Below are positions 10,327-60,104 of a stretch of DNA of 64,000 nucleotides, one piece after another. This DNA comes from Actinospica robiniae DSM 44927 (GTDB lineage Bacteria > Actinomycetota > Actinomycetes > Streptomycetales > Catenulisporaceae). Within the stretch, counting starts at the first letter, position 1. Each line of letters opens with the position of its first letter. The stretch lies in assembly GCF_000504285.1 (NCBI RefSeq), contig NZ_KI632511.1, positions 9,716,154 to 9,780,153 on the forward strand, in the 5' to 3' direction. The position numbers and the translations under genes are program-made. The notes below the pieces were generated by a model. The model did not search any database. It had not been told where the DNA came from and saw nothing but the letters and a program-made list of their open reading frames with translations.

Positions 10327-10330
10327 GACA

Positions 10331-10369
10331 GCATTCTGGCCCGGCCGCTACGCGGCCGGGCCAGAATGC
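10331..10369. promoter_or_regulatory. 17-bp stem-loop immediately upstream of the transposase start
   Basis: Left arm 10331-10347 (gcattctggcccggccg) and right arm 10353-10369 are perfect reverse complements with loop ctacg. It lies between the IS end and the ATG. In insertion sequences, such hairpins are known to block translation from transcripts entering from outside; that function is inferred here. Confidence 0.6.
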
Positions 10370-10387
10370 ATGATTTTCATGACGCTT

Positions 10388-10557: not shown

Positions 10558-10638
10558 AGCTCCGGGGGTCACTCGTTCGGCGGCATCCATCGCCCGTTCA
10601 GGCGGCGGGCCGTGGGCCGTGCTGGCAGGCTGGTGATC

Positions 10639-11133
10639 ATGGCGAACTCGCCCTACGGCAGGCCCGACCCGTATCAGCGGCCCCCTGACCCGGACGACGA
10701 CCGGCGCGGTGGCTTCCGCAAGGTCAACGGGGTACGGCTCTGGGTCGGCGGGATCATGACGGCGATCGTGGCCGCGCTGGCCGCGCTCGTAGCGGTGCTG
10801 CTCGTACGCGGCGTGCTCGACATCGCGGTGTTCGCACCGAAGACGAACGGGGCCTTCGGGAACGCGACGACCGCGGGGATCGTCGGTGCCGCGGCGCTGG
10901 CCGCGCTGGTGGCCACGGCTCTGCTGCACCTGCTGCTGCTGGCCGCGCCGCAGGCTCGGATCTTCTTCGGCTGGATCGTCGCGCTGGCCACGGCCGCGCT
11001 GATGCTCGTGCCGTTCACCACCGACGCGGCCATGGACACGAAGGCGGCCTCGGCCGGAATCTCGCTGGTCATCGGGCTGACGATCGGATTTCTGCTGTCC
11101 GCGGTCGGCCGCAGCGCCGTCACCCGCGGCTGA
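10639..11133 (+). CDS. Four-helix membrane protein of unknown function (DUF6069-like)
   Basis: A 164-residue protein with a charged, proline-rich cytoplasmic N terminus (SPYGRPDPYQRPPDPDDDRR) and four predicted membrane segments (about residues 38-58, 76-100, 107-125 and 132-152). It resembles the small actinobacterial DUF6069 membrane proteins, for which I know no function. The ATG at 10639 is chosen over an in-frame ATG at 10612 because homologous-looking sequence starts with MANSPYG. Its 3' end overlaps the convergent proC gene by 14 bases. Confidence 0.7.
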   Translation: MANSPYGRPDPYQRPPDPDDDRRGGFRKVNGVRLWVGGIMTAIVAALAALVAVLLVRGVLDIAVFAPKTNGAFGNATTAGIVGAAALAALVATALLHLLLLAAPQARIFFGWIVALATAALMLVPFTTDAAMDTKAASAGISLVIGLTIGFLLSAVGRSAVTRG

Positions 11134-11947
11134 GCCGCGCCGAGGCCCAAAGTTCGTCGCCGACCTCGGCTGAGCGCAGCGCGCCGGCCCGCACCGCGGA
11201 CTCGACCGCCGTGCCCACGCCGTGCTCCCTGAGCACGGCGAGCGCGGCTTGCGTGGTGCCGCCGGGCGTGGCGACGGCTTCGCGCAGGTGGGCGGGGGAG
11301 CGGCGGGTGCCCTGAAGCATCGCGACGGCCCCCTGGGCCGCCTGCACCACCATCAGCCCGGCGGCCTCCTCGGTCACGCCGAGGCGCATCCCGGCGCGGA
11401 TCATGTGGTCGAAGATCTCGTAGAAGTACGCCGGGCCGCTGCCGGAGAGCGCCGCCGCGACGTCCTGCTGGTCCTCCGGCACCCGGATCACCTCGCCGAC
11501 CGGCCGCAGCAGCTGCTCCGCGCGCAGCACGTGCTCCTCGTCCGCATCGGGGCCGGACGAGAGCACGCACATGCCCTCGCGCGCAGACACGGCGGTGTTC
11601 GGCATCGCGCGCACCACCGGCGTGCGCTCGGGCAGGTAGCGCTCCATCAGTGCGATCGGCACGCCGGCCGCGAGGGAGAGCACCAGGCAGTCAGGGTCGA
11701 GTCGTGCGCCGATCGCGGTGAGCAGGTCGGGCACGGCCTCGGCCGGCACCGCGAGCACGACCGTGTCGGCGTCCTCGGCCGCTTCGAGAGCGGAGACCAT
11801 GCGCACGTCGAGGGTCGCCTCGATCTGCGCGGCCGCGCGGTCGTCGCGCTCGACGCCGCGGATGTCCGCGCTCGGGACGCCCGCCGCCAGCCAGCCGCTG
11901 AGCAGCGCGTGCCCGAGTTCACCGACGCCGAACAGCGAGATCCTCAT
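11120..11947 (-). CDS. proC: Pyrroline-5-carboxylate reductase
   Basis: Catalyses NAD(P)H-dependent reduction of pyrroline-5-carboxylate to proline. The 275-residue protein starts MRISLFGVGELGHALLSGW (a Rossmann GxGxxG variant, with E replacing the usual N or M) and contains AMPNTAVSAREGM and the family signature region SGSGPAYFYEIFDHM ... VQAAQGAVAML with SPAHLREAVATPGGTTQAAL. The start at 11947 is preferred because it gives the family N terminus; an upstream in-frame extension is arginine-rich. Some ProC-like proteins serve secondary metabolism, but nothing nearby suggests that here. Confidence 0.9.
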   Translation of the reverse strand: MRISLFGVGELGHALLSGWLAAGVPSADIRGVERDDRAAAQIEATLDVRMVSALEAAEDADTVVLAVPAEAVPDLLTAIGARLDPDCLVLSLAAGVPIALMERYLPERTPVVRAMPNTAVSAREGMCVLSSGPDADEEHVLRAEQLLRPVGEVIRVPEDQQDVAAALSGSGPAYFYEIFDHMIRAGMRLGVTEEAAGLMVVQAAQGAVAMLQGTRRSPAHLREAVATPGGTTQAALAVLREHGVGTAVESAVRAGALRSAEVGDELWASARLSRG

Positions 11948-45786: not shown

Positions 45787-46434
45787 GTGTCCCGCGTCAG
45801 GGTTCATAACTTCTCCATCTCGCTCGACGGCTTCGGCGCCGGCGAGGGCCAGAGCCTCGAGGCGCCCTTCGGCCACGCCGGCACCCGGCTGAACGAGTGG
45901 TTCTTCGGCACCGAGGCCTTCCGGTCGATGCAGGGCAAGCCCGGCGGTCGGGTCGGCGTGGACGACGCACTGGCCAAGGCCTGGGGCCCGGGCATCGGCG
46001 CCGAGATCATGGGCCGGCGCAAGTTCGGTCCGCAACAGGGGCCGTGGCCCGACCTGGAGTGGGAGGGCTGGTGGGGCGAGGACCCGCCGTTCCACACGCC
46101 GGTCTTCGTGCTCACCCACCATCCGCGCCCTACCCTGCAGATGCAGGGCGGCACGACCTTCCACTTCATCGACGCCGAGCCGGCCGAGGCGCTGCGCCAG
46201 GCCCGCGAGGCGGCCGGCGGCCTGGACGTGCGCATCGGCGGCGGCCCGAGCGTGGTGCGGGCGTTCCTGGAAGCGGATCTGATCGACCATCTGCACGTGG
46301 TGATCGTGCCGATCCTGCTCGGCCGCGGCGAGCGGCTGTGGGACGGGATGGAAGGGCTCGAAGAGCGCTTCCCGGAGATCGAGTCGGTCAGCACGCCGAG
46401 CGGCGTCACGCACGTGATCTTCAACCGTCCCTGA
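45787..46434 (+). CDS. Dihydrofolate reductase-family (RibD C-terminal domain) protein
   Basis: A 215-residue reductase-like protein starting at GTG 45787: VHNFSISLDGFGAGEGQS, GADIMGRRKFG-like segment (GAEIMGRRKFGPQQGPWP), VFVLTHHPRP and the glycine-rich DVRIGGGPSVVRAFLEADLIDHLHVVIVPILLGRGERL. This is the RibD_C/DHFR-like fold of NADPH-binding reductases common as paralogs in actinobacteria; the substrate is unknown and most are not true DHFRs. The next gene starts 17 bases later. Confidence 0.88.
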   Translation: MSRVRVHNFSISLDGFGAGEGQSLEAPFGHAGTRLNEWFFGTEAFRSMQGKPGGRVGVDDALAKAWGPGIGAEIMGRRKFGPQQGPWPDLEWEGWWGEDPPFHTPVFVLTHHPRPTLQMQGGTTFHFIDAEPAEALRQAREAAGGLDVRIGGGPSVVRAFLEADLIDHLHVVIVPILLGRGERLWDGMEGLEERFPEIESVSTPSGVTHVIFNRP

Positions 46435-46451
46435 GGAGAGGAATCGCCGCC

Positions 46452-47258
46452 GTGTCCGAGCAGACCGTGACCGAGACCGTCACCGCCGTCGACGGCACCG
46501 AGATCGTCATCGACGTCGTCGGCGAGGGCGACGCGGTCGTGCTGATCGGCGGCGCCTTCAACGACCGCAGCACGGTCGCGGGGCTCGCCGAGCAGTTGGC
46601 CTCGCGCTTCTCCGTGTTCACCTACGACCGGCGCGGCCGGGGCGCGAGCGGCGACGAGAGTCAGGACTACGCCATCGCCGACGAGGTCGGCGATCTGGCC
46701 ACGGTGCTCGGCTACGCGGGCGGGCGGGCCAGCGTGTTCGGGCACTCCTCGGGCGCCATCCTCGCGCTCGAGGGCGCTCACCACGGGCTGCCGATCGACC
46801 GGCTCGCGGTCTACGAGCCGCCCTACAGCGCCGACCCCGACCTGCCGCGGCCGGCCCCAGAGCTCTTCGGCCGGCTCAAGGCCCTGGTGGCCGCCGGCGA
46901 CCGGGACGGGGCCGCGCAGCTGTTCCTGCGGGACCTGGTGGGTGTGCCGGAGCAGGGCGTGGCCGGTATGAAGTCCGGTCCGGCCTGGTCCTTCCTGGTG
47001 GACAAGGCGCCGAGCCTGCCCTACGACGCGCTGCTTTCCTCGCCCTGGGACCTGCTCAGCTCGGATCGGCTGACCGGCATCGACCTCCCGGTGTTGGCGA
47101 TCTACGGGGAGCAGACCACCCCGGGCCTCGCGGCCGGCACGAAGGCGGTGGCCGCGCTCGTCCCCGGCGCGGCGCTCGAGGTCGTCCCGGACGAGGACCA
47201 CTCGGTGCTGCAGCGCCCGGCGGTGCTCGCGCCGCTGCTCACCACGTTCTTCGGGTGA
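46452..47258 (+). CDS. Alpha/beta hydrolase
   Basis: A 268-residue hydrolase: oxyanion region VVLIGGAFNDRST, YDRRGRGASGDE, nucleophile elbow FGHSSGAILALE, LPVLAIYGEQTTPG with the acid-site region, and the catalytic His in VVPDEDHSVLQ. GTG start at 46452 after GAGGAG. It is probably in one transcript with the upstream reductase-like gene. The substrate is unknown. Confidence 0.87.
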   Translation: MSEQTVTETVTAVDGTEIVIDVVGEGDAVVLIGGAFNDRSTVAGLAEQLASRFSVFTYDRRGRGASGDESQDYAIADEVGDLATVLGYAGGRASVFGHSSGAILALEGAHHGLPIDRLAVYEPPYSADPDLPRPAPELFGRLKALVAAGDRDGAAQLFLRDLVGVPEQGVAGMKSGPAWSFLVDKAPSLPYDALLSSPWDLLSSDRLTGIDLPVLAIYGEQTTPGLAAGTKAVAALVPGAALEVVPDEDHSVLQRPAVLAPLLTTFFG

Positions 47259-47975: not shown

Positions 47976-48770
47976 CTATCTCGCGGTGCTGCGCCGAGCT
48001 TCGCCAGCCAGCTGCCTCGCCAGCACCTCCCGCGCCTGCACCAGACTCGGCCCGTACCAGGTCAGCTGACGTCCACTCACCAGTGCGGCCCGCACGCCGG
48101 GAAACGCCTCCGGCCCGTCCTCGGCGGAGAAGGCGTACGGCTCGTCCGGCAGCACCACCAGATCCGCCCGCGCCGCCTGGAGTTCCGGCAGCGGGATCGC
48201 CGGGTACCGCTCGGCGTGGTCCGCGTAGACGTTCGCCACGCCGAGCCGAGCGAGGACATCGCCGGCGAAGGTGTCGCTGCCGAGGACCATCCACGGCCGC
48301 CGCCAGATCGGGACGATCGCGCGGCGTTGTTCGAGGCCTCCCTCCACCGGCGTCCACGCCGCCTGCGCTTGGTCGAGCCACTCAGGCCGCTCCAAGCCGC
48401 ACGCCGAGGTCAGTAGCCGATGGAGCGAAGCGAAGGCCTCGTCGAGCGTGCGCACCCTGGTCACCCACACCGGTACTCCGGCCGTCCGCAGCGCGTCGAG
48501 ATCGGCGGCCCGGTTCTCCTCCTCGTTCGCGATCACGAGGTCGGGCTGCATCGCCGCGATCCGGGCCGTATCCGGGTTCTTCGTCCCGCCGATCCGCTCC
48601 ACGTCGAGATCGGGCGGGTGCGTGCACCACGCGGTGGCCCCGACGATCAGTCCGGGCGCAGTCGCGGCCACCGCCTCGGTCAGCGACGGCACGATTGAGA
48701 CGACCCGCTGTATCGGCCGTCCCAGCCGTACGTCCTCGCCGAGATCGTCAGCCTCCACGTGTGTCCGCAT
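47976..48770 (-). CDS. BtuF/FepB-like helical-backbone metal receptor without signal peptide
   Basis: A 264-residue protein of the periplasmic-binding-protein superfamily type III: RVVSIVPSLTEAVAATAPGLIVGATAWCTHPP, ERIGGTKNPDTARIAAMQPDLVIANEEENRAADLDAL, and the later LGSDTFAGDVLARLGVANVY and LPELQAARADLVVLPDEPY. Such proteins bind cobalamin, haem or siderophores outside the cell, but no signal peptide, lipobox or membrane segment is visible, so this one is probably cytoplasmic. No ABC transporter gene is nearby. It is divergent from the OleA-like operon and shares its 105-base control region. Confidence 0.85.
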   Translation of the reverse strand: MRTHVEADDLGEDVRLGRPIQRVVSIVPSLTEAVAATAPGLIVGATAWCTHPPDLDVERIGGTKNPDTARIAAMQPDLVIANEEENRAADLDALRTAGVPVWVTRVRTLDEAFASLHRLLTSACGLERPEWLDQAQAAWTPVEGGLEQRRAIVPIWRRPWMVLGSDTFAGDVLARLGVANVYADHAERYPAIPLPELQAARADLVVLPDEPYAFSAEDGPEAFPGVRAALVSGRQLTWYGPSLVQAREVLARQLAGEARRSTAR

Positions 48771-48831: not shown

Positions 48832-48851
48832 GGTGAGTACCGCTACTCACC
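48832..48851. promoter_or_regulatory. 20-bp palindrome GGTGAGTA-N4-TACTCACC upstream of the OleA-like operon
   Basis: Perfect 8-bp arms at 48832-48839 and 48844-48851 lie 24 bases before the first start codon of the operon and 61 bases from the divergent receptor gene. Size and symmetry fit a TetR- or GntR-type operator. No regulator gene is adjacent. Confidence 0.6.
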
Positions 48852-48875: not shown

Positions 48876-49901
48876 ATGACAATCATGGTCATGGTTCTCC
48901 AGCCTCCCCGCGTCGGGATCACCGCGAGCGGCTCCTGTCTGCCCGCGCGCGAACTGACGACGCAACAACTCCAGGACGCGGTGAGCGTCGGCAGCGGTCT
49001 GCGTTTGGCGGACGGCATGTTCGAGAAGGCCACCGGCATCCGCACCCGCCGCTTCGTCGCCGAAGGCGAATACGCCTCCACACTCGCCCTCGGCGCGGCA
49101 CGCCGGGCGTTGGAGCACGCCGAACTCGACCCGCTCGACATCGACCTGCTGCTGTTCGCCTCCGCCACCCGCGATCTGTGCGAACCCGCCACCGCGCACG
49201 TCGTGCAGGCCGAGCTCGGATCGAGGGCGCACACGTTCGACTTGTCGAACGCCTGCAACAGCTTCCTCAACGGCATCGACACGGCCCGCGCCATGATCCT
49301 GGCCGGCCGGTCGCGGCGAGCCCTGGTGGTGACGGGCGAGACGCCGAGTCGCGCGATGCGGCTCGACCCCGGCGGCTCCGAGGAGCTGCGCGACGGCTTC
49401 GCCGGATACACCTTCGGCGACGCGGGCGCCGCCGTCGTGGTCGAGTCCGTGCCACGCGGCGGAATACTCGACATCGACACCGAGACCGCGTCGGAGCACT
49501 GGACGCTCGGCGGCATCCCCGGCGGCGGATCGCGCCACCCGCGCGGCGACGAGCACACGTACTTCCGCGGCAGCGGCGCCGAACTGCGCACGGTCTTCGA
49601 GAAGATCGGCGCCGGCATCCTGGCCCGGGTCGGCGAACGCACCGGACTCGGTTGGGAAGCCTACGCCCGGATCCTCGTGCACCAGGTCTCGCTGCCCTAC
49701 CTCGAACGCTTCCTCGAGCTCACCGGCGCGCCCGCGGACCGGCTCGTCCTGACCGTCCCGGAGCTCGGCAATCTCGCCAGCGCCACCCTGGGCGTGCAGC
49801 TGGCCCGCATACACGGCGAGTTGCGCTCCGGGGACAAAGTCCTGATGATCGGACTCGGCGGCGGGGTCAGCCTGATGACGATCGTGTGGGAGGTGCCGTG
49901 A
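48876..49901 (+). CDS. OleA-like thiolase (3-oxoacyl-ACP synthase III family)
   Basis: A 341-residue condensing enzyme. The catalytic triad is C127 (LSNACNSFLNGID), H269 (LVHQVSLPY) and N299 (ELGNLASATL). RDLCEPATA (about 100-107) resembles the R-D-x-x-E-P-S-T-A block carrying the catalytic base Glu in OleA, and the region after the cysteine (NACNSFLNGIDTARAMILAG..ALVVTGE) also resembles OleA more than FabH. A head-to-head Claisen condensation of two acyl-CoAs, or of an acyl chain with another thioester, is thus likely. First gene of a five-gene operon; starts at 48885 or 48891 are also possible. Confidence 0.85.
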   Translation: MTIMVMVLQPPRVGITASGSCLPARELTTQQLQDAVSVGSGLRLADGMFEKATGIRTRRFVAEGEYASTLALGAARRALEHAELDPLDIDLLLFASATRDLCEPATAHVVQAELGSRAHTFDLSNACNSFLNGIDTARAMILAGRSRRALVVTGETPSRAMRLDPGGSEELRDGFAGYTFGDAGAAVVVESVPRGGILDIDTETASEHWTLGGIPGGGSRHPRGDEHTYFRGSGAELRTVFEKIGAGILARVGERTGLGWEAYARILVHQVSLPYLERFLELTGAPADRLVLTVPELGNLASATLGVQLARIHGELRSGDKVLMIGLGGGVSLMTIVWEVP

Positions 49902-50641
49902 GCACGGCGTTGTGGGTGGTGATCCCGGCTTACCAGGAGCAGGCCCGGATCTCGGGTGCGCTCCACGCGTTGGCCCGTCAGCAGGACACTGATTTCACGC
50001 TTCTCGTGGTGGACAACGGCTCGACCGACCAGACCGCTGAACTCGTCCACGCCTTCGCCCGGGAGGCACCGTTCCCGGTCGAGCTCATCACCGAACCGGA
50101 GAAGGGCGTCGGCAGCGCCGTGGACACCGGCTTCCGCTACGCCATCGAACACGGCGCGACGCTGCTGGCCCGCACCGACGCAGACTGCCTTCCGCGTCCG
50201 GACTGGACCGCCGCCGCGCGCGCCGGGCTGGTGGAGTCCGGCGGGCTGGTGTGCGGCCGCGTCCTGGCCCGCCCGGACGAGCACGGCCCGGTCGGCCGGG
50301 CGGTGTTCCGCCTGCTCGTGGTGCTGGGTGCCGGCTTCGGCCGGATCCGGCCCGCGCACCGCCGCAGGCACGGCTACCTGGTGCCGTATCGGATGCACGC
50401 GGGCAACAACATGGCCATCACCGCACAGCTGTATCTGCACGTCGGCGGTATGCCCCGGCTGCCCTCGCCGACCGACCGGATGTTCATCAACATGGTCCGC
50501 CGCCACACCACCGCGATCGTGCACCGGAGGGACATGATCTCCCGCAACTCCACCCGCCGCATACGCGCCTATGGCGTGGTCGGAACGGCCCGGTGGTATC
50601 TGGAACGCGGCGCCGGCACCCGCTCCGTCGACCCTCGGTGA
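49898..50641 (+). CDS. Family 2 glycosyltransferase
   Basis: A GT-A fold enzyme of 247 residues: WVVIPAYQEQARISGAL, LLVVDNGSTDQTAELVHAF, the metal motif in LARTDADCLPRPDW (D94-A-D96) and GNNMAITAQLYLHVGGMPRL. There are no strong membrane helices. In this operon it might transfer a sugar or other group to the lipid product or a carrier. GTG start with a 4-base GTGA overlap with the OleA-like gene. Catalytic residues appear intact. Confidence 0.88.
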   Translation: MSTALWVVIPAYQEQARISGALHALARQQDTDFTLLVVDNGSTDQTAELVHAFAREAPFPVELITEPEKGVGSAVDTGFRYAIEHGATLLARTDADCLPRPDWTAAARAGLVESGGLVCGRVLARPDEHGPVGRAVFRLLVVLGAGFGRIRPAHRRRHGYLVPYRMHAGNNMAITAQLYLHVGGMPRLPSPTDRMFINMVRRHTTAIVHRRDMISRNSTRRIRAYGVVGTARWYLERGAGTRSVDPR

Positions 50642-50648
50642 GGCCGTG

Positions 50649-52115
50649 ATGCTCGATACCCTCTACCGCACGCTGCGCCGCGACCCCGAGCGTCCGGCGC
50701 TGCTCGGCCACAGCCGAGGCGACGAGCCTCGGGTCATCGCGCGACGCGGGGACATCGCAGACCTCGCCGATGGGTATGCGGCCGCGTTGTACTCGCGGCA
50801 CGGCCTGCGCCCTGGTGACACCCTCGGAGTCGCGGCACGCCCGGGCCTGCATACGCTCGCCGTCATGCTCGCGGCGCACCGCCTCGGCTTGCGTGTGGCG
50901 GCCCTCAATCCGGCTGCCGGTCCGGACGTGATGCGGGCCGGCACTCAGCTGGCCGCGCCTTCGTTGATCATCGCTGACGCCCTCGTCCAAGCGGTGGCGG
51001 GTTGGGCTGCGCCGGTGGCCCGTCGCGCCCGCATAGCGATGCCGCGGCTCGACGAGCTCGGCCCGGCCGTGGTCACGGTGGGGCCGCGACGGATGGGCTG
51101 CGCGCCCGCGCTCGAGACGTCCGGCTGCGCGCCGGCTCCGCCCTTCGATGTGGACGAGCAGAGCGACGCGGTCATCATCTTCACCTCCGGCACGACCGCC
51201 GCGCCAAGAGCGGTGGTACACAGCCGGGCGAGCCTCGCCGCCGGCATGCGCGCGGTCGCGGACCTGGTGGGCCCGAATGAGGGCTCGATCGTGCTCGGCG
51301 GCACGTTCTTCGTCCAGCTTCCGGCGCTCGCCGGCGGCGCCACCGTCGCTCTTCCGGCACTGAGCCCGGGAGGCCTCGGCCGCCAGATCGCCAGGCTCAA
51401 GCCGGACGAGACGTACCTGACGCCGCCCGAAGCGCGCGAGGTGCGGCACTTCACCGGACGCGTCTGGCTCGGTTCGGCACCGGTGAGCGCGCGCTTGCTC
51501 GGCCGGATCCGGGACGCCGGCGCCACCGAGGCCTGGGGCGTCTACGCGATGACGGAATGCTTCCCGGTGTCCGCGGTCGAATACGACGAGAAGGCGGCGT
51601 TCACGGCGGCCGGCGACCTCGTCGGCAGTCCGCTTCCCGGCGTGCAAGCGAAAGTTTCGGAGACCGGCGAGCTGCTGCTGACCGGCGCGGGTGTGCGGGA
51701 CCGCTACCTCGGCGAAGAGCCCGACCCCTGGGTGCGCACGGGAGACCGGGCTATGATCACCGCGGACGGCCAGATCGTGCTGGAAGGGCGCTGCAAAGAC
51801 ATGGTGCTGCGAAATGCCGAGAACATCTACCCCGGACTGTACGAGCCCTCCCTGCACCTGCCCGACGTGGAGTCGGCGTTGCTGGTCGGCATACCGGACG
51901 GCGACGGCGACGAACGCCTGGTCGCGATGATCCAGGCGCGGATCGGAGCGGACCGGAAGAAGCTGCTCGAGGAACTCGAGGTGCCGTTCGCGCGCATGGG
52001 CAGCGCCCGCCCGGACGAGGTGGTGTTCGCCACCGTGCCGCTCAAGGGCCGGTCGCGCAAACCGGACCGGGAGAAGGCGGCGCAGCGGTGCGCGAAGCGG
52101 CTGGCCAAGCGATGA
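50649..52115 (+). CDS. AMP-forming acyl ligase (OleC-like position) with altered P-loop
   Basis: An ANL-superfamily enzyme of 488 residues. The P-loop reads TSGTTAAPR (179-187): the usual G and K (TSGTTGxPK) are replaced by A and R. WGVYAMTECFP (A5), PWVRTGDRAMITADGQIVLEGRCKDMVLRNAENIYPGLYE (A7/A8) and the end region LKGRSRKPDREKAAQR are present. In Ole clusters, the ligase homologue OleC is a beta-lactone synthetase acting on beta-hydroxy acids; alternatively this could be an acyl-CoA or acyl-AMP ligase. It begins 7 bases after the glycosyltransferase stop (ATG 50649, GAGG upstream) and overlaps the P450 gene by 4 bases. Confidence 0.85.
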   Translation: MLDTLYRTLRRDPERPALLGHSRGDEPRVIARRGDIADLADGYAAALYSRHGLRPGDTLGVAARPGLHTLAVMLAAHRLGLRVAALNPAAGPDVMRAGTQLAAPSLIIADALVQAVAGWAAPVARRARIAMPRLDELGPAVVTVGPRRMGCAPALETSGCAPAPPFDVDEQSDAVIIFTSGTTAAPRAVVHSRASLAAGMRAVADLVGPNEGSIVLGGTFFVQLPALAGGATVALPALSPGGLGRQIARLKPDETYLTPPEAREVRHFTGRVWLGSAPVSARLLGRIRDAGATEAWGVYAMTECFPVSAVEYDEKAAFTAAGDLVGSPLPGVQAKVSETGELLLTGAGVRDRYLGEEPDPWVRTGDRAMITADGQIVLEGRCKDMVLRNAENIYPGLYEPSLHLPDVESALLVGIPDGDGDERLVAMIQARIGADRKKLLEELEVPFARMGSARPDEVVFATVPLKGRSRKPDREKAAQRCAKRLAKR

Positions 52116-53158
52116 GCGCACGGTCGCTGGACCGCCGCGTCTACCTGCGCAGCCATCCGTTGCTGTTCGGGCTGATCAGCGCCACCAGGCCGCTGGGCGC
52201 CGTCTGGGTCGGACGTACCCTGCTCGTGCACGACGCCGAGGTCTACCGGGAGATTCTGACGAACGTCCCGCTCGACCGCGAGGCCGAGGGCACGACGGGC
52301 GGTGCGGCACTGCAGTTGGGCGGCGGGGGAGTGCTTTTCGACCAGGCCGGAGACGAGCATCGCGAAGCACGCCGATCGCTGGCCGCGGACCTGGGCGCCG
52401 AAGGAGTGAGCCGTGTTCGTCCGATCTGGCAGGGCGTCATCGAACGCGGGCTCACGCAGTTGCCTGGTCCGGTCGACCTCGTCCCGCTGGCGAAGGAGAT
52501 CGCGGGGGCCACGGCGTGTGCGCTGACGGGCTGTGCGACCGAGCCGCTCGTGCTCGCTGAAGCAACCGTCGAGGCTGCCTCGAACGCAGCAGGTGAACAC
52601 TTGCCCCGCCTGTGGGGGCACCGACGGGTCGCACTCCGAGCGCTACGCGCTGCCGATGCACTCAGCGCACTGCTACCCGACCCCTTAGACGCGATGCTGG
52701 CGGTCGCAGCCGTCAACACCACCCTTGCCGCGCTGCCGCGAGCTGCGGCGTGGTGTGCGAGAGCAGAGCTTTGGGATCAGATCTCGCCGGAGCTCACCAG
52801 CGAGCTTCTACGCGTTACGGCGCCTACGCCGATCCTGCCGCGCGTTGCCGCGGCCGGCGCGACGATCCGGCTGGGGGACAGGCGTTTCCGGATCCGCGCA
52901 GGAGACCGGCTCATCCTGGTCGCCCGCCACGCCGCCGAGGCCCACCGCGATACGGCGAGGAACGAGCGGACTGCGGCCCAAGCCGTCTTCGGCGCCGGTC
53001 CGCACGCCTGCCCTGGCGCCAACCTGGCCCGCGCCCAGCTCACGGACTTCCTCACGGCGCTCGTTCCTCATCGCCCCGAGGTTCGGAAAGCGGTCGCGGC
53101 ACGCGGGACCGCATTGCCCGGCTACGCGAAGCTGGTGATGGCGGGAAGCCGGGTGTGA
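52112..53158 (+). CDS. Short, atypical cytochrome P450
   Basis: A 348-residue P450, shorter than the usual about 400. The haem loop FGAGPHACPG (293-302) gives the ligand C300; ExxR is E231-R234; the C-helix HxxxR is H83-R87. The I-helix motif is AAVNTTLAALP (about 199-209), lacking the acidic residue of the usual (A/G)Gx(D/E)T, so proton delivery may differ, as in some peroxygenase-type or non-oxidative P450s. Missing length is mainly between the ExxR and earlier helices. ATGA overlap with the ligase gene. No ferredoxin gene is in the operon. Confidence 0.85.
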   Translation: MSARSLDRRVYLRSHPLLFGLISATRPLGAVWVGRTLLVHDAEVYREILTNVPLDREAEGTTGGAALQLGGGGVLFDQAGDEHREARRSLAADLGAEGVSRVRPIWQGVIERGLTQLPGPVDLVPLAKEIAGATACALTGCATEPLVLAEATVEAASNAAGEHLPRLWGHRRVALRALRAADALSALLPDPLDAMLAVAAVNTTLAALPRAAAWCARAELWDQISPELTSELLRVTAPTPILPRVAAAGATIRLGDRRFRIRAGDRLILVARHAAEAHRDTARNERTAAQAVFGAGPHACPGANLARAQLTDFLTALVPHRPEVRKAVAARGTALPGYAKLVMAGSRV

Positions 53159-54030
53159 GCATGCGCGTAGCCGTCACTGGAGCGAGCGGCTTCTGCGGCG
53201 GCTACGTCGCGCGGGCCGCACGGGATCGAGGCGATGAAGCGCTCTGCTTCTCGCGCACGAAGGGCCCGGTGGGCCGGCACATCCCGTGGGACGCGTCCGC
53301 CGATGTGCCGGACCTGCACAGCGCGGAGCTGGTGATCCACTGCGCCGCTGCAGTCGGCGATCACAAGCCTGGCAGCGCCGAGGAGCGCAACCAGGCGGCA
53401 GTCAACGTGCGCGGCACGCAGCGTCTGCTTGAGGCGGCCGCGAGGGCCGGGTGCAAGGTCGTCTTCGTCAGCAGTGCGAGCGTCTACGACACGAGGCGAA
53501 GCAGGGAACGTATCACCGAGGATCATCCGACCGAAGGCGGCCACCTCAACGCGTACGGCGCCACGAAGGCACAGGCCGACCGCGCCGCGCTGGCCGCGGG
53601 AGCCGTGGTCCTGCGGCCCCGCGCGGTTTACGGGCTCGGGGATCCGCACCTGGTCCCGCGGCTGCTCGCGCACCAGCGCAGGGGCCTGATGCCACTTCCC
53701 GGCAAGGACGTCACGCTCAGCCTGACCGCCGTCGAAACCCTGGCGGACGCGTGCCTTGCCGCGGCGGCTTGGCCAACCGGCGCCTACAACATCGTCGATC
53801 CCGAGCCCTATCGGCGAGACGCCGCGGTCCTCAGCGTCCTGATAGCTCACGGCCGTGGCGCCGGGCGCATCCTCCATGTGCCACTGCCGATAGTCAGAGC
53901 TCTGCCCAGCGCCGTGCTCACGCCTTATGCGGTCGATCAGCTTGCCCACACCGTCGTTCTCGACACGAGTAAAGCGCGGGGCCAGGGCTTCGCGCCGACG
54001 CGTACCCTCGCCGACTACCGCCCGATCTGA
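53155..54030 (+). CDS. NAD(P)-dependent epimerase/dehydratase, OleD/3-beta-HSD-like
   Basis: An extended short-chain dehydrogenase of 291 residues: Rossmann motif VAVTGASGFCGGYVA, LVIHCAA, VFVSSASVYD (Ser) and the catalytic YGATK (YxxxK). The N-terminal region with DEALCFSR resembles OleD-type 3-oxoacid reductases, and genomic position next to OleA- and OleC-like genes supports that comparison. GTG 53155 overlaps the P450 stop (GTGA); ATG 53161 is an alternative start. Its stop directly abuts the convergent nadR stop. Confidence 0.85.
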   Translation: MSMRVAVTGASGFCGGYVARAARDRGDEALCFSRTKGPVGRHIPWDASADVPDLHSAELVIHCAAAVGDHKPGSAEERNQAAVNVRGTQRLLEAAARAGCKVVFVSSASVYDTRRSRERITEDHPTEGGHLNAYGATKAQADRAALAAGAVVLRPRAVYGLGDPHLVPRLLAHQRRGLMPLPGKDVTLSLTAVETLADACLAAAAWPTGAYNIVDPEPYRRDAAVLSVLIAHGRGAGRILHVPLPIVRALPSAVLTPYAVDQLAHTVVLDTSKARGQGFAPTRTLADYRPI

Positions 54031-55143
54031 TCAGCCGAGCGGATCGGCCAGACCCCAGCCGCGCGCGAGCATGTCATCGACTGCTGCGATCGCTTGGTGC
54101 AGCCGTGCATCCCGAGCGCCGGTCACCTCGATCCACGGGATGTCCTGCGCGGCAAGGATCTCGCGGAACCGGCCCGTCATCCAGGCGCGGATGTGCTCGC
54201 CGTCGCGCAGGCCGTCGTCTTCGAAAGGGACGCCCTCGTCGCTGGTGAGGATGTACAGCGCGCGCTTGGGCATGGCGGCTGCGGCTCGCTCGACGTCGGG
54301 CGTGGTCGCGCCCATGTAGCGCTCCTGCCAGACGGTGGTAGCGAGCGCGTCGGTGTCGCAGACGAGCACGGGTCCGCCGCGACGTGCCGCACGGTCTTCG
54401 TCGGCGGTCTGGCGTACGACCACGTCGGTGAAATCAGAGTCGAGCCATTCGAGGTCGAAGATGCTCGGCTCCGGCCCGCGCTCGCGCGCCGCCAGCGCCC
54501 GGGCCACCGCCAGCTTGACGACCGTCAGGGTCCTGCCGTACTCCGGCACACAGCCCGTCGACGCGTGTGCGCCGCCACGTGCACGCAGGGCTTCAGCGAG
54601 GTCGAGTGAGAGCGTGGTGGTCCCGGTGGACTCCGCGCCGAGCACGACGACGCGGCGGGCGAGCCACGCGCGCACGGGCGGTGCGATCGACTCCCAGTGC
54701 GCGATCGGATCGGCACGCACCTTCGTCGCCGAGATCGGGACGGTCCCGCGCGACTGGTCGAGGCGCACGTCCGCGGCGTCGAATCGGCGCGCCATCTCCG
54801 CGCCGTATGGCTCCGAGGTGAAGACGGCCGTCACCGGGACGCCCGCGTGCGCGGAAGCCGTCAGGGCTTCGCGCATGAGGCTCACGTGGCCCTCCCACGC
54901 GTCGTCGTCGCCGTAGTCGACGCGGAGGTTGTCCATGATCCCGACGACGTCCACGTGGCTCTCGGCGTACTCCTCCCGCAGCCAGGCGGCTCGCGCGGCC
55001 AAGGGGATGGACTCCACGTCGGCTGCCATCACCACGACGCTGACACGCCGGCAGGCGGAAGCGGCAGCGTCGATGAGGAAGTGGTGGCCGGCGTGCGGCG
55101 GATAGAACTTGCCTATGACCAGCCCGTGCTCGAACTCGCTCAC
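54031..55143 (-). CDS. nadR: NadR-like NMN adenylyltransferase/ribosylnicotinamide kinase
   Basis: A bifunctional NAD salvage enzyme of 370 residues. The N-terminal nucleotidylyltransferase domain has GKFYPPHAGHHFLI (HxGH motif) and PISATKVRADP; the C-terminal kinase domain begins VVVLGAESTGTTTLSLDLAEAL. The Walker A is GAESTGTTT, with Thr where NadR usually has Lys (GxxxxGKS/T), so kinase activity is uncertain. There is no N-terminal helix-turn-helix, unlike enterobacterial NadR. It overlaps the upstream transporter gene pnuC by 4 bases, matching the transport-then-phosphorylation route for nicotinamide riboside. Confidence 0.92.
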   Translation of the reverse strand: MSEFEHGLVIGKFYPPHAGHHFLIDAAASACRRVSVVVMAADVESIPLAARAAWLREEYAESHVDVVGIMDNLRVDYGDDDAWEGHVSLMREALTASAHAGVPVTAVFTSEPYGAEMARRFDAADVRLDQSRGTVPISATKVRADPIAHWESIAPPVRAWLARRVVVLGAESTGTTTLSLDLAEALRARGGAHASTGCVPEYGRTLTVVKLAVARALAARERGPEPSIFDLEWLDSDFTDVVVRQTADEDRAARRGGPVLVCDTDALATTVWQERYMGATTPDVERAAAAMPKRALYILTSDEGVPFEDDGLRDGEHIRAWMTGRFREILAAQDIPWIEVTGARDARLHQAIAAVDDMLARGWGLADPLG

Positions 55144-55793
55144 GCGGCCACGACCTCGGCGTGCGGCTCACGCACGGCGCTCTCCCGCATCCACGCGCGC
55201 AGACCGAAGCCGCACAGGGAGAGGAAGAGGATGTACACGATGCCGGTGAGGTACAGCACCTTGACGAAGTAGAGCGGGACGTAGATCACGTCGGCGGCGA
55301 TCCAGAAGTACCAGTTCTGCAGCTTCTTGATGTTCAGCAGCCATTGGGCGGCCAGCGAGAGCGCGGTGGTCAGCGCGTCCCAGAAGGGCGCGATGTCGTG
55401 CGCGGCGCTCAGGATCGCGGTCAGGCCCCAGGTCGCAGGCACGATCAGGAACGCCAGCAGGCCGACCAGCTTGGGCGAGGCGTGGCCCATCACCCGCCGG
55501 CTGCGCCGTTCGCCCCCGTGCAGCCACTCCCACCAGCCCAGGAAGCCGAGCCCGAGGTAGACGATCTGCAGCGACGCGTCCGCGTAGAGCCGCGCGGTCC
55601 AGAACAGCACGAGGAAGAAGACGTTGTTGGCGATGCCGATCGGGAAGTTCCAGATGTTGAACCGCACGGTCAGCCACACCCCGACCGCGCCGGTGGCGAA
55701 GCCCAGGAGTTCGGCCCAGGTCACCGCGTCCTGTCCGAAGTGGAACAGGACGGTGTTGAGCGGTGCCACCCACGAGTCCAGCCAGTGCATCAT
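55140..55793 (-). CDS. pnuC: Nicotinamide riboside transporter PnuC
   Basis: A 217-residue membrane protein with about seven helices. PnuC signatures: WNFPIGIANNVFFLVLFWTARLYADASLQ and QWLLNIKKLQNWYFWIAADVIYVPLYFVKVLYLT, the conserved substrate-binding region with WxxW-type residues. It imports nicotinamide riboside by facilitated diffusion, trapped by NadR phosphorylation. ATG 55793 follows a run of six G. First gene of the pnuC-nadR operon. Confidence 0.95.
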   Translation of the reverse strand: MMHWLDSWVAPLNTVLFHFGQDAVTWAELLGFATGAVGVWLTVRFNIWNFPIGIANNVFFLVLFWTARLYADASLQIVYLGLGFLGWWEWLHGGERRSRRVMGHASPKLVGLLAFLIVPATWGLTAILSAAHDIAPFWDALTTALSLAAQWLLNIKKLQNWYFWIAADVIYVPLYFVKVLYLTGIVYILFLSLCGFGLRAWMRESAVREPHAEVVAA

Positions 55794-55889: not shown

Positions 55890-56001
55890 GGGACCCGACG
55901 GCCGGGCCTGCCGCGTCGAGGCGGAGCGGTCCGGCTCCGTTGCGCCCCGTTGTTCCAATGGGCACACTGCGCGCTAGCAGGCACGGTCGCGCGGCCGCTT
56001 A

Positions 56002-56015
56002 TGTTAACGCTAACA
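56002..56015. promoter_or_regulatory. LacI-type operator before the arabinofuranosidase gene
   Basis: TGTTAACGCTAACA has 5-bp perfect arms (TGTTA/TAACA) around a central acgc, and overlaps the leader directly before the AGGAGG ribosome site (about 56017-56022). Its position would block transcription or early elongation. Confidence 0.65.
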
Positions 56016-56027
56016 CAGGAGGCTAAG

Positions 56028-57494
56028 ATGCTCACCCAGCGAAGGCGGGGCCTGGTGGCCGCCGCAGTGGTCACCGCGTTGGCCGGCGCCGGCGGGACGG
56101 TGGTCGCCGTCGGAGCGCAGGCCGCCACCGCGGGCTGCACCGTGTCGTACGCGATCAGCTCCCAGTGGCCGGGCGGCTTCGGCGCGAACGTCGAGGTCAC
56201 GAATCTCGGCGCCGCGGTCAGCAGTTGGACGCTGACGTGGTCCTTCACCGCCGGGCAGACGGTCACTCAGCTCTGGAACGGCAGCTACACGCAGTCCGGC
56301 TCCGCGGTGACCGTGACCAGCGCCTCGTACAACGGGAGCCTGGCGACCGGAGCCGACGCCACGTTCGGCTTCAACGGCGCGTGGAACAACTCCAGCAACC
56401 CCGCCCCGACGGCCTTCAGCATGAACGGCGTCGCGTGCACGGGCACGGTGGGCACCTCCACCGGCTCGACGAGCCCGAGCCCCAGCCCCAGCCCCACGAG
56501 CGCGTCGCCCAGCGCCTCGCCCAGTTCGTCGCCCACGCAGGGCGCCGGTCAGGGTCCGTGCGACATCTACGCGTCCGGCGGCACGCCCTGCGTGGCAGCG
56601 CACTCCACCACCCGGGCGCTGTACGCGGCGTACAACGGCAACCTGTACCAGGTGCGGCGTTCCTCGGATAACTCGACGCTGAACATCGGCGTGACCTCGG
56701 CCGGCGGCTATGCGAACGCGGCGGCGCAGGACTCGTTCTGCTCCGGAACGACCTGCGTGATCACGGAGATCTACGACCAGTCCGGCCACGGTAACAACCT
56801 GACTGACGCCCCGGCCGGCGGCGCGGCAGGTGGCCCCGACGGCCTGGCGAACGCGACCGCCGCGCCCACCACGCTGAACGGTCACAAGGCCTACGGCGTG
56901 TACATCGCGGCCGGCGACGGCTACCGTGACGACTCCACCAGCGGGATCGCGACCGGCGACAACGCCGAGAGCGAGTACGCGGTGCTCGACGGCACGCACT
57001 ACAACGGCGGCTGCTGCTTCGACTACGGCAACGCCGAGACCGATGCCCATGACGACGGCAACGGCACCATGGAAGCGATCTACTTCGGCAACATCAAGGT
57101 GTGGGGTTACGGCACCGGGAACGGCCCGTGGATCATGGCCGACATGGAGAACGGCCTGTACTCCGGAGTCAACGCGGGCTACAACGCGAACGACCCGACG
57201 ACGAGCTACCGCTACACCACGGCGATGATCGAGGGCGGCGCCAACAAGTGGGCCATCCTCGGCGGCAACGCGCAGTCCGGCGGCCTGGCCACCGACTACA
57301 GCGGCACGCGGCCGAACGTCTCGGGCTACAACCCGATGCACAAGCAGGGCGCGATCATCCTCGGCATCGGCGGCGACAACAGCAAGAGCTCGGCCGGCAC
57401 CTTCTACGAAGGCGTCATGACGAGCGGATACGCGTCCGCGTCGACGGAAGCGGCGGTGCAGGCGGAAATCGTTACCGCCGGGTACGGGAACTGA
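56028..57494 (+). CDS. Secreted CBM2-linked alpha-L-arabinofuranosidase (GH54)
   Basis: A 488-residue exported enzyme that should remove arabinose side chains from arabinoxylan or arabinan. Order: Sec signal peptide (RRRGLVAAAVVTALAGAGGTVVAVGAQA, about 5-32), a cellulose-binding CBM2 (about 33-138, GCTVSYAISSQWPGGFGANVEVTN ... WNGSYTQSG), a Ser/Pro linker (about 142-178) and the GH54 domain (about 179-488) with TEIYDQSGHGNNLTDA and the CCFDYGNAE motif that carries the catalytic nucleophile in GH54. The fungal-type C-terminal CBM42 is absent. The start at 56028 has a perfect AGGAGG. Regulation by a LacI-type repressor is suggested by the operator at 56002. Confidence 0.92.
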   Translation: MLTQRRRGLVAAAVVTALAGAGGTVVAVGAQAATAGCTVSYAISSQWPGGFGANVEVTNLGAAVSSWTLTWSFTAGQTVTQLWNGSYTQSGSAVTVTSASYNGSLATGADATFGFNGAWNNSSNPAPTAFSMNGVACTGTVGTSTGSTSPSPSPSPTSASPSASPSSSPTQGAGQGPCDIYASGGTPCVAAHSTTRALYAAYNGNLYQVRRSSDNSTLNIGVTSAGGYANAAAQDSFCSGTTCVITEIYDQSGHGNNLTDAPAGGAAGGPDGLANATAAPTTLNGHKAYGVYIAAGDGYRDDSTSGIATGDNAESEYAVLDGTHYNGGCCFDYGNAETDAHDDGNGTMEAIYFGNIKVWGYGTGNGPWIMADMENGLYSGVNAGYNANDPTTSYRYTTAMIEGGANKWAILGGNAQSGGLATDYSGTRPNVSGYNPMHKQGAIILGIGGDNSKSSAGTFYEGVMTSGYASASTEAAVQAEIVTAGYGN

Positions 57495-57551
57495 CCCGGA
57501 CGATTTTCGCCGGCACCCGCATGATCGCAGGTCAAGCGGGCACCCGGTGGT

Positions 57552-57842
57552 ATGGCTATGGAGTTCAAGAAGCACCAGGGTGCCGCCGCCGTCATCCTGC
57601 TCGCCGCCGCGATCATCGCCGCGATCATCGTGCTCCACATCATCTTCGTCCTGATCGGGGCGAACGGTCATAACAGCATCGTGTCCACGATAGGCCAGTG
57701 GTCGGGCCACCTGGCCGCGTGGTTCAAGGATCTGTTCGACACGAGCAGCGCGAAGTGGAACGTCGTACTGAACTACGGCCTCGCCGCGCTGGCCTACCTG
57801 TTCGTCGGGAGGCTGGCGGCGAGTCTGGTCGAAAGGGTCTGA
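57552..57842 (+). CDS. Small two-helix membrane protein
   Basis: The 96-residue protein has two membrane segments (about 11-37 and 73-92) and a short amphipathic stretch between them (HNSIVSTIGQWSGHLAAWFKDLF). Unknown function. Its 3' end overlaps the convergent esterase gene by 49 bases, an unusually long tail overlap. ATG 57558 is an alternative start. Confidence 0.6.
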   Translation: MAMEFKKHQGAAAVILLAAAIIAAIIVLHIIFVLIGANGHNSIVSTIGQWSGHLAAWFKDLFDTSSAKWNVVLNYGLAALAYLFVGRLAASLVERV

Positions 57843-58846
57843 TCCACCCCGACGCGGTCGCGCAGCCAGAGCAGCTGACGGCGTGTGTGCACCGCGTCGC
57901 CACCCTCGTGGTGGTTGAACGGATAGACATGGATGGCGCGCTCCGGTAGCGCGCCATCCATGTCGGCACGCCTGGTGCCGTACAGGTTGTAGGCCGCGAA
58001 CACGCCGCTGGGCGGGCAGACGGTGTCGCGCAGGCCCACGCCGAAATGCGCCGGTGCCACGGCGCGGCGGGTGAAGTTGACCGCGTCGACGTACGACAGG
58101 GTGTTGCGAGCCGCCTCCTCCGCGCCGCGGTGGACGGAGAGGTAGGAGACGATCTCGCCGTAGGGCGAGGCGTCGGTGATGTCGATCGCGCGCTGGATCT
58201 GGCACAGGAACGGCGCGCTGGCGAGCACCGCGGCCAGGTCCGGCACGAGGCCGGCCACGGCGAGCGCGAGTCCGCCGCCCTGACTGTTGCCCGCGGCCAC
58301 CACCTGCTCCGGATCCACGCCCGGAAGCTCCCGGACGGCGGCGACGGCGCGCACGGCGTCGGTGATCAGGCGCCGGTAGTAGTACCGCTCGGGGTCGAGG
58401 ACGCCGCGGGTGACGACGCCGGGACCGCCGAGGGCGTCGGCGTGCGGGTCGGGGGTGTCGCCGCCGCAGCCGTACTGGTCGCCCTGGCCGCGGCTGTCCA
58501 TGAGCAGGTGGGCGTATCCGGCCGAGGGCCAGACCAGCCGCTCGTGCGGCAGACCTCTGCCACGTCCGTAGCCCAGGTACTCGACCACCGCGGGCAGCTG
58601 CGCGTCCACGCCGGCCGGCCGCGTGTACCAGGCGCGCACCGGATCGCCGCCGAACCCTGCGAACGTCACGTCCCAGGTCTCGAACATGCTCAGCCCGGTC
58701 GGCTCCTCGCGGCGCACGTCCAGGATCAGCGGGCCGCCTTCGGCGGTGGCCAGCGAGGCGCGCCAGAACTCGTCGAAGTCCGCGGGCTCGCGCACGTCCG
58801 GCGCGTAGCGTTCGAGCTGGTCGAGCGGGAGGTCGAACAGTGCCAT
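57794..58846 (-). CDS. Acetyl xylan esterase/cephalosporin-C deacetylase (CE7 family)
   Basis: A 350-residue alpha/beta hydrolase of the CE7 group; removes acetyl groups from xylooligosaccharides. Family features: MALFDLPLDQLERYAPDVREPADFDEFW at the N terminus, LGYGRGRGLPHERLVWPSAGYAHLLMDSRGQGDQ, nucleophile elbow AAGNSQGGGLALA, VGLRDTVCPPSGVFAAYN (Asp) and NHHEGGDAVH (His). No signal peptide, so it would act on imported oligosaccharides. It fits the neighbouring LacI, GH3 and sugar-permease genes. A start at 58858 adds four residues. Confidence 0.9.
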   Translation of the reverse strand: MALFDLPLDQLERYAPDVREPADFDEFWRASLATAEGGPLILDVRREEPTGLSMFETWDVTFAGFGGDPVRAWYTRPAGVDAQLPAVVEYLGYGRGRGLPHERLVWPSAGYAHLLMDSRGQGDQYGCGGDTPDPHADALGGPGVVTRGVLDPERYYYRRLITDAVRAVAAVRELPGVDPEQVVAAGNSQGGGLALAVAGLVPDLAAVLASAPFLCQIQRAIDITDASPYGEIVSYLSVHRGAEEAARNTLSYVDAVNFTRRAVAPAHFGVGLRDTVCPPSGVFAAYNLYGTRRADMDGALPERAIHVYPFNHHEGGDAVHTRRQLLWLRDRVGVDQTLSTRLAASLPTNR

Positions 58847-58903
58847 ACGAGGGCTCATTTCCTTCGGGCCAGGGGAGCGGAGCGAAGACGCGGGGGACGC
58901 AGC

Positions 58904-59938
58904 TCAGTGCCGGGGCGGCGCGGTGCTCTCCCGTACGACGAGGGTGGTGACCAGGTCGACCCGGCTGAGCGAGAGATCGTCGCCGCGGGCGAGGTCGAGC
59001 ACCATCCGGGCCGCGGTGCCGGCCATGTCGCGCAGCGGCTGGTTGACCGTGGTCAGCGCCGGATCGGTCCACGCGGTGACCGGCAGGTTGTCGTAGCCGA
59101 TGATGGACACGTCGCCGGGCACGTCCAGGCCGAGCCGGCGGGCCGCGCGCAGCACGCCGAGCGCCTGCATGTCGGAGCTGGCGAAGATCGCGGTGGGCCG
59201 GTCGGGGCGGTCGAGCAGCGCCATGCCCTGCTCGTAGCCAGCGCCGACGTAGAAGCTGCCGTGGCGCACGAACGTGGGATCGACCGGGATGTCGCCCTCC
59301 TCGTGCGCGAACCGGAATCCGGAGAGCCGGGTCCGCGCGCACAGCACGTCTTCCGGCCCTGAGATGATCGCGATCCGCCGGTGGCCGAGCTCGAGCAGGT
59401 GGCGGGTGGCGAGCAGGCCGCCGTTCCAGTTGTTCGACCCGACCGTGGGCACCGACGCCGTGGTCGCGCTGTCGGTGTCCACCACCACGAACGAAATACC
59501 CTGACGCCGCAGCTGGTGCTGCTGCGCCTGGGTCGGGCTGCAGAGCACGAACAGCACGCCGAGGGGGCGGCGGGCCAGCAGGGCGTCGAGCCACTGCTGC
59601 GGCGGATGGTGCCGCCCGCCCAGCTGGGAGAGCACCATGTCGAGGCCGGCCGGCGCGGTCACCGCCTCGACCCCCTGGATGATCTCCATCGACCAGGCCG
59701 AGTCGTACTCGTGGAAGACCAGGTCGATCCGGCCGGTGGACTCGGCGGCGCGACGGGTGCGGCGGCGGTAGCTGTGGCGCTCGAGGCTGGCCTCGACCCG
59801 GGCCCGGGTGTCCGGCGCCACGTCGGCGCGGCCGTTGAGCACCTTGGAGACGGTGGTGACCGAAACGCCTACCTCGTCGGCGATCGTCGCGATGGTCGGT
59901 GAAGCGGGGACTACCTCGGCTTGATCCTGCACGGTCAT
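58904..59938 (-). CDS. LacI family transcriptional regulator
   Basis: A 344-residue repressor with an N-terminal helix-turn-helix (TIATIADEVGVSVTTVSKVLNGRADVAPDTRARVEASLERHSYRRR), hinge region and periplasmic-binding-protein-like sugar domain (RRIAIISGPEDVLCARTRLSGF, VPGDVSIIGYDNLPVTAWTDPALTTVNQPLRDMA). It probably senses a xylo- or gluco-oligosaccharide and controls the adjacent divergent GH3-permease operon, and possibly itself: ccgaaag-tttt-gcgg lies upstream of its own start. ATG 59938 follows GGTGAG. Confidence 0.93.
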   Translation of the reverse strand: MTVQDQAEVVPASPTIATIADEVGVSVTTVSKVLNGRADVAPDTRARVEASLERHSYRRRTRRAAESTGRIDLVFHEYDSAWSMEIIQGVEAVTAPAGLDMVLSQLGGRHHPPQQWLDALLARRPLGVLFVLCSPTQAQQHQLRRQGISFVVVDTDSATTASVPTVGSNNWNGGLLATRHLLELGHRRIAIISGPEDVLCARTRLSGFRFAHEEGDIPVDPTFVRHGSFYVGAGYEQGMALLDRPDRPTAIFASSDMQALGVLRAARRLGLDVPGDVSIIGYDNLPVTAWTDPALTTVNQPLRDMAGTAARMVLDLARGDDLSLSRVDLVTTLVVRESTAPPRH

Positions 59939-60104
59939 CGAAATCTCACCTGTATTCCGCAAAACTTTCGGGGAGTGTAGCAGTCACAACGACCCGAGCG
60001 CGCGGTCTGAATGAAAGCCTCCGCGAGCAAGGAGCAGGTCTGAGCTGGGGTGCGCCGCCGAGCATTGCCTTTGTAGGCAACGAAACGATCGGTGGTGGGG
60101 AGTC

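Follow-up and report, generated by a model that had tools for sequence, protein, structure and literature searches.

A five-gene operon, which we have analysed in a 64,000-nucleotide stretch of Actinospica robiniae DSM 44927 (the window; contig NZ_KI632511.1, from a genome of 9.92 Mb in one contig), combines relatives of the Ole enzymes OleA, OleC and OleD with a family 2 glycosyltransferase (GT2) and a cytochrome P450. The operon is real and recurrent: when one genome per species was scanned for close relatives of its OleA-type ketosynthase (KS), 38 loci emerged, and in 29 of these all five genes have been found in the same order, which means that the arrangement is no product of chance. We propose that the operon specifies a pathway of the oleACD type, extended by two tailoring enzymes, whose product would be a glycosylated, oxidised beta-lactone, and we put the probability of this reading at about 0.5.

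Organization and recurrence of the operon

According to the list of open reading frames (ORFs) and a Pfam search over the window, the operon comprises five collinear ORFs on the + strand at 48876-54030 (Table 1), whose products match, in this order, ACP_syn_III, Glycos_transf_2, AMP-binding, p450 (a weak match, 24.8 bits with a cut-off of 22.8) and Epimerase/3Beta_HSD. The first three junctions are a 4-base overlap (KS/GT2), a 7-base gap (GT2/ligase) and another 4-base overlap (ligase/P450). The fourth, between the genes of the P450 and of the short-chain dehydrogenase/reductase (SDR), depends on the start of the SDR: the in-frame GTG 53155 gives a 4-base overlap and ATG 53161 a 2-base gap. 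The one-direction layout with such junctions, reported in a preliminary description of this DNA, is borne out, for the last overlap only with the GTG start. The window coordinates are those of the ORF list, since the gene caller used for the relatives clipped the window's KS, GT2 and ligase genes and overlooked those of the P450 and the SDR.

Table 1. Genes of the operon and the palindrome upstream of it (window coordinates)
Feature	Position	Strand	Residues and remarks
OleA-type ketosynthase III / thiolase (KS)	48876..49901	+	Cys127, His269, Asn299, Glu103-Pro104 (= OleA Glu117-Pro); start perhaps ATG 48885
Family 2 glycosyltransferase (GT2)	49898..50641	+	GT-A fold; DxD and catalytic-base Asp kept
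OleC-like adenylate-forming enzyme, candidate beta-lactone synthetase	50649..52115	+	Pfam, tree, A8/A10 Lys
Cytochrome P450, 348 aa	52112..53158	+	Heme Cys300, ExxR, Thr203; I-helix acid replaced by Asn202
OleD-like NAD(P)-dependent extended SDR	53155..54030	+	Tyr132-Lys136 (numbering from ATG 53161); start GTG 53155 or ATG 53161
Operator-like palindrome GGTGAGTA-CCGC-TACTCACC	48832..48851	.	Core matches TGAGTACnnGTACTCA at 13/14; intergenic region common with divergent gene 47976-48770

The nearest named relative of the KS is that of Actinospica durhamensis (88% identity). Among the loci that do not show the complete order, six (L012, L023, L024, L029, L036 and L037) are cut by a contig end after the first two to four genes, and L046 has a KS of 28% identity adjoining an SDR. 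L045, from a metagenome-assembled genome (MAG) of Chloroflexi, contains all five types in the rearranged order P450-KS-MFS-GT2-P450-ligase-SDR, and L044 retains a KS fragment only; the latter, the C-terminal half of the KS (10001-10540) without the other four genes, is perhaps a decayed copy. In seven loci a second GT2 gene is located between the ligase and P450 genes. The KS and the GT2 form the most conserved pair, adjacent in L009-L043 wherever both are found. The distribution across the order is patchy: the KS (E <= 1e-100) is present in 22 of 147 genomes of the order, namely in 2 of 3 genomes of the genus (our genome included), in 0 of 11 from the rest of the family and in 20 of the main sister family. 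In the class, GT2 relatives at E <= 1e-30 have been found in 23 of 394 genomes (ours again included) and 12 of 138 genera.

From the 26 GT2 places of this class scan we picked a distant set of 12 regions in 10 genomes. All five types are present in six of them (L067, L070, L072, L073, L077 and L078), three of which (L072, L073 and L077) have the order KS-GT2-P450-ligase-SDR. Several members of the distant set carry fused genes. The GT2 is joined to the P450 in L070 (652 aa) and to the ligase in L075 (801 aa) and L076 (784 aa), both from one genus, and in L067 (8391-9911) a BrkB-type membrane domain is fused to the cluster's second GT2, suggesting that glycosylation may take place at the membrane. 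In L068, GT2 and P450 genes lie near GT4 and methyltransferase genes. L069 possesses two adjacent KS genes (9926-11835) next to those of the GT2, the ligase, the P450 and a PapA-like acyltransferase (6346-7599); its second KS keeps the OleA glutamate but has the catalytic Cys replaced by Ala, and the pair is reminiscent of an LstA/LstB-type heterodimer set in a glycosylating cluster.

It is unlikely that the operon is a piece of a larger cluster: the neighbours common to 7-10 loci all come from a single group, made up of Kitasatospora and near relatives, and all others outside the five (or six) genes are common to at most five loci. The genes on either side of the operon in the window seem to have no connection with it. 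Upstream lies a divergent Peripla_BP_2 gene (47976-48770). Directly downstream (54031-55793) an AAA_28 gene overlaps a nicotinamide mononucleotide transporter gene, probably a pair involved in NAD salvage, and further on (55950-59962) an arabinofuranosidase with CBM2, an acetyl xylan esterase and a LacI-type regulator make up a locus for hemicellulose use.

Relationship of the enzymes to the Ole pathway

As a reference we used 20 regions (L091-L110) from 51 genomes with OleD-like matches, whose identity as oleABCD-type loci is defined by context and not by assay. They encode an AMP ligase, an SDR and a KS in one direction, the KS having been found in 18 of the 20. A separate OleB is present in eight, and in eleven the ligase ORF has 804-934 aa and is interpreted, by its length alone, as an OleBC fusion; L109 was left unassigned. 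In L092-L095 the oleABCD-type locus has a gene of some 1500-1700 aa as its immediate neighbour; the copy in L092 resembles by eye the terminal part of a modular polyketide synthase, which hints that polyketides may feed an Ole pathway there. Trees were calculated for the window's proteins together with those of 11 of 36 actinobacterial loci (10 in the case of the SDR), of the distant loci and of the Ole regions (18 KSs, 20 ligases and 20 SDRs), and with 7 KSs, 23 ligases or adenylation (A) domains and 10 SDRs from elsewhere in our own genome. They comprise neither L045, for which the gene caller returned no genes, nor L046, and the SDR of L042 was overlooked and is absent from the SDR tree. 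For the residue counts the alignments were restricted to members of near-normal length that were covered to 75% or more in BLAST, so that they contain no fusion proteins.

The preliminary description regarded the first, third and fifth proteins as OleA-, OleC- and OleD-like, and this is supported by the trees and by a comparison of Glu117. In the OleA of X. campestris this residue, contributed by the partner subunit, is essential for condensation; it gives OleA homologues a mechanism that no other characterised thiolase shares, and a Pro follows the Glu in all but two of the OleA set in question (PMC7064751). The Glu-Pro pair and the Cys-His-Asn triad are kept in 45/45 members of the operon family. 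Glu117 is found in 18/18 KSs of the oleABCD-type loci, each time with Pro after it, and in none of the 7 other KSs sampled from the nine PF08541 matches of our genome; three of these 7 align poorly at this position. In the KS tree, which contains no named OleA or FabH, the family and the OleAs of six of the 18 oleABCD-type loci lie on one side of a 98/99 branch, with the other 12 context-defined OleAs, L069_10 and the seven KSs of our genome on the other side; both KS rows of L069 have very long branches and their placement is unsure.

The ligases of the family are sister to the 20 OleC rows (100/98), outside the OleC clade, and stand apart from the ordinary ligases and A domains of our genome (23 sampled from its 64 AMP-binding matches, with no named FadD among them). 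The A8 and A10 lysines are retained in 35/35 ligases and the T of the MTE motif in 34/35. Likewise, the SDRs are sister to the 20 OleD rows (94/91, not starred), outside the OleD clade, and keep the Tyr-Lys pair in 33/33 members.

No OleB is present within the operon by the ORF list and Pfam, as the preliminary description stated. The best match in our genome to the OleB of L097 has 33% identity and 84 bits (the eight OleBs share 42-95%), and among the called genes of the family loci (L045 not covered) one match of 26-29% was found, in L040. An alpha/beta hydrolase gene (Abhydrolase_6, in 45897-47258) about 1.6 kb upstream of the operon is not among the OleB matches of the genome. Judging from this gene content, the pathway probably ends before decarboxylation, although a divergent OleB may be encoded elsewhere in the genome.

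Both tailoring enzymes have intact catalytic sites: the GT2 keeps the DxD motif and the base Asp in 50/50 members, and the P450 keeps the heme Cys, the ExxR motif and the I-helix Thr in 29/29, the I-helix acid being Asn in 26/29. A dead P450 homologue is ruled out by these residues, and the enzyme, earlier characterized as atypical, is short (348 aa) and probably active. The predicted structures, which are confident (mean pLDDT 85.1 for the GT2 and 85.9 for the P450), matched GT-A enzymes (a Leptospira GT, WrtF, TarS and PcManGT, Z up to 23.4) and the P450s StaP and P450BioI (query TM 0.46-0.72 among the matches listed), respectively. Such searches recognize broad folds only and do not tell sugars, acceptors or substrates apart. 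The P450 homologue EryCII is known to activate the glycosyltransferase EryCIII (PMC3391682), and it might be argued from the GT2-P450 fusion of L070, the short chain and the Asn in the I-helix that the P450 of the operon is also a structural activator of its glycosyltransferase rather than an oxygenase. We consider this improbable, given the retention of the heme Cys, the ExxR motif and the Thr in all members, and a fusion would fit two consecutive steps equally well. The known P450 homologues that activate glycosyltransferases, moreover, lack heme ligation and pair with GT1 enzymes.

A conserved operator upstream of the ketosynthase gene

The 20-bp palindrome noted earlier before the operon is present (Table 1), with two 8-base arms around CCGC, and is unique in the window. 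By itself it is unremarkable, as the 64 kb contain 37 inverted repeats with 8-base arms and spacers of 0-8; what raises it above chance is its conservation upstream of the KS in the relatives. The KS start could be anchored by homology in 35 of the 38 loci, and in each of these the best upstream 16-mer was scored against TGAGTACnnGTACTCA (14 positions). It reaches 14/14 in 14 loci, 13 in 10 (13 is also the value of the window's own site), 12 in 4, 11 in 4, 10 in 2 and 8 in one (L045), so that 28/35 loci match at 12 or more positions and 34/35 at 10 or more. By comparison, in 10,000 control windows taken from these loci a match at 12 or more positions was seen 3 times and one at 10 or more 268 times.

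Exact copies of the TGAGTACnnGTACTCA motif, mostly one to four per genome, are found in 133 of the order's 147 genomes, and the reversed pattern once each in 18 of the 147. Our own genome contains no exact copy, and three sites of the looser form TGAGTAnnnnTACTCA. Since many of the motif-bearing genomes are without the operon, the site must serve a wider regulon. We read 30 operator copies in other genomes: two precede this KS, three have no called gene behind them, and the remainder precede many short proteins, membrane-bound by eye, and otherwise varied enzymes. In 13 of the 30 copies, both KS copies included, the start codon follows at 34-36 bases. Because of this spacing ATG 48885, 35 bases from the site, is more likely to be the KS start than 48876, at 26 bases.

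At seven loci (L163, L168, L171, L172, L175, L182 and L183) the operator stands 26-36 bases before the gene of a conserved hydrophobic protein of 42-45 aa (MLWSDPEN...), which in L163, L175, L182 and L183 lies beside what we take to be a Maf-like gene. A second loose operator of our genome (L151, G000:C1:60002-60017) lies where a LuxR/NarL-like response regulator gene ends; downstream of it follow a small hydrophobic ORF and a UbiA-like gene, two names that were given by eye.

An inverted repeat of 7-2-7 form fits a NarL-type response regulator, and TGAGTACnnGTACTCA resembles the site that Liu et al. 2019 reportedly gave for MacR of S. coelicolor. Among the matches listed in the open-access literature the 16-base motif was not found as one string. 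MacR is a NarL-type regulator with an established consensus, which targets membrane proteins and lipoproteins, promotes antibiotic production and holds back differentiation; the available text of these accounts of the MacRS regulon of Streptomyces does not name the operon as a MacR target (PMC9739842, PMC10345050). The similarity of the sites suggests that the operon may belong to the MacR regulon. A BldM site was ruled out, as the group I consensus of BldM, TCACcCgnncGgGTGA, differs (PMC4125116).

Proposed pathway and known systems

The preliminary description held that no cluster of this content had been described, which is wrong. The cluster type and the hypothesis about its product are already in print as a prediction (PMC7064751, mBio 2020) for a region of Actinoplanes atraurantiacus that encodes OleA, a glycosyltransferase, OleC, a P450 and OleD in a genome without oleB. 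The proposal there is that a Claisen condensation and a reduction take place, that an acyl chain is hydroxylated and the resulting alcohol glycosylated, and that the beta-lactone is closed. The pathway that we infer for the operon, in every chemical step, in the order of steps, in the sugar and the chain lengths and in the beta-lactone itself, would run along similar lines. The KS, acting as OleA, would join two acyl thioesters head to head to yield a 2-alkyl-3-keto acid, whose 3-keto group would be reduced by the SDR in the manner of OleD; the P450 would hydroxylate an acyl chain and the GT2 would add a sugar to the hydroxyl thus made; finally, the OleC-like ligase would adenylate the carboxylate and the 3-hydroxyl would close the beta-lactone, which would be retained because there is no OleB to decarboxylate it. 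Acyl-acyl condensation and reduction are likely as the first steps, glycosylation and oxidation are plausible because the enzymes are intact and fused in relatives, and for the closure of the beta-lactone we see about an even chance. A glycosylated and oxidised beta-lactone or related lipid, as suggested earlier, is a reasonable proposal for these sequences.

A number of observations weigh against this proposal. The KS, the ligase and the SDR all score far below the NCBIfam cut-offs: the KS is nearest to PRK09258 (161.5 of 285 bits), the ligase to PRK06187 (96 bits), ahead of PRK09274 (82 bits, cut-off 478), and the best match of the SDR is OleD, at 72 of 580 bits, a cut-off reached in 0 of 394 genomes and hence no ground for excluding an OleD. 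A sequence search of the PDB also goes against the OleA assignment, for the best matches of the KS are FabH-named (116 bits), and the entries that we take to be X. campestris OleA follow with 98.5 bits. As said above, 12 of the 18 context-defined OleAs lie across the KS branch from the family. The OleA of A. atraurantiacus is active on p-nitrophenyl hexanoate in vivo, and the purified enzyme, of which little protein was available, reacted with none of the acyl-CoAs tested (PMC7064751). The low scores, the FabH-named structures and this inert enzyme would suit a KS that does not condense acyl groups and an unrelated small glycoside as the product, the likeness to Ole being due to shared ancestry only. 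We hold such a scenario to be unlikely, as the Glu117 essential for condensation is invariant and three Ole-like genes occur all together. An ordinary FabH is ruled out by the tree and by Glu117, despite the first rank of the FabH-named structures.

Further points against the proposal concern the later steps. Since the ligase and the SDR are sister to the sampled OleC and OleD clades and outside them, beta-lactone formation is an extrapolation. In the distant set, four regions have the KS, the GT2 and the ligase (with a P450 in L069 and L074) and no recognised SDR, and in L068 and L071 a GT2, P450s and an SDR occur, whereas a KS and a ligase are missing from the stretch read. Other alpha/beta hydrolases of our genome, including the one upstream of the operon, could act in trans. 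Finally, a sugar on the 3-hydroxyl would preclude a beta-lactone. It can be envisaged that the OleA and OleD steps are the same and that the GT2 glycosylates precisely this hydroxyl, with the ligase activating the carboxyl as an AMP ester or CoA thioester towards a glycolipid ester, an amide or an envelope lipid. Such an outcome would agree with the clade of its own that the ligase forms beside OleC, with the conserved adjacency of the KS and the GT2, as if the GT2 acted on the KS product directly, with the PapA-like acyltransferase gene next to the L069 cluster and with the short, seemingly membrane-bound proteins behind the operator elsewhere. On the other hand, the ligase is nearest to OleC in the tree and not to the ordinary ligases sampled, and oleACD clusters without oleB in S. 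toxytricini and N. brasiliensis give beta-lactones (PMC7064751). We regard a product without a lactone as possible rather than probable, and prefer the glycosylated, oxidised beta-lactone.

Beta-lactones are drug scaffolds, lipstatin and salinosporamide being named examples (PMC7064751). Among the matches listed in the open-access literature there is no glycosylated Ole-pathway beta-lactone beyond the prediction in that paper, and no report of the product of such a cluster. With the KS present in 22 of the 147 genomes scanned in the order, an overlooked class of lipids may be common in well-studied genera, and the conserved operator is a practical handle, since more of the matching regulator might switch the pathway on and reveal its product. 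It is a speculative and rather doubtful extension of the proposal that the family represents a distinct Ole branch of Actinomycetota and a Chloroflexi MAG, producing glycosylated, oxidised beta-lactone lipids under a MacR-type control tied to aerial development and antibiotic production, which would be unrecognised developmental envelope lipids or self-made inhibitors of Streptomyces and relatives.

Among known systems, the oleABCD-type loci L091-L110 share the KS Glu117-Pro, the AMP ligase and the SDR with the operon and, unlike it, have no family-type GT2 or P450 scored among their called genes. The lipstatin cluster includes a nonribosomal peptide synthetase. Its KS is an LstA/LstB heterodimer (PMC7064751), whereas the operon possesses one KS together with a GT2 and a P450; a KS pair of the lipstatin type is absent here, and of the nine PF08541 matches in the genome the only one in the window is the KS of the operon. 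The oleACD clusters of Nocardia brasiliensis and Streptomyces toxytricini, whose products are beta-lactones, likewise comprise OleA, OleC and OleD without OleB (PMC7064751). Closest of all is the A. atraurantiacus cluster, which, compared by description and not by sequence, has the same five domains in the listed order, also without oleB, and the same inferred product (PMC7064751). The available text of that account deals with one region, without an operator, a distribution or GT/P450 fusions; what is new here is the distribution of the operon, its occurrence in a Chloroflexi MAG, the additional GT2 that seven loci carry, the gene fusions and the conserved operator.

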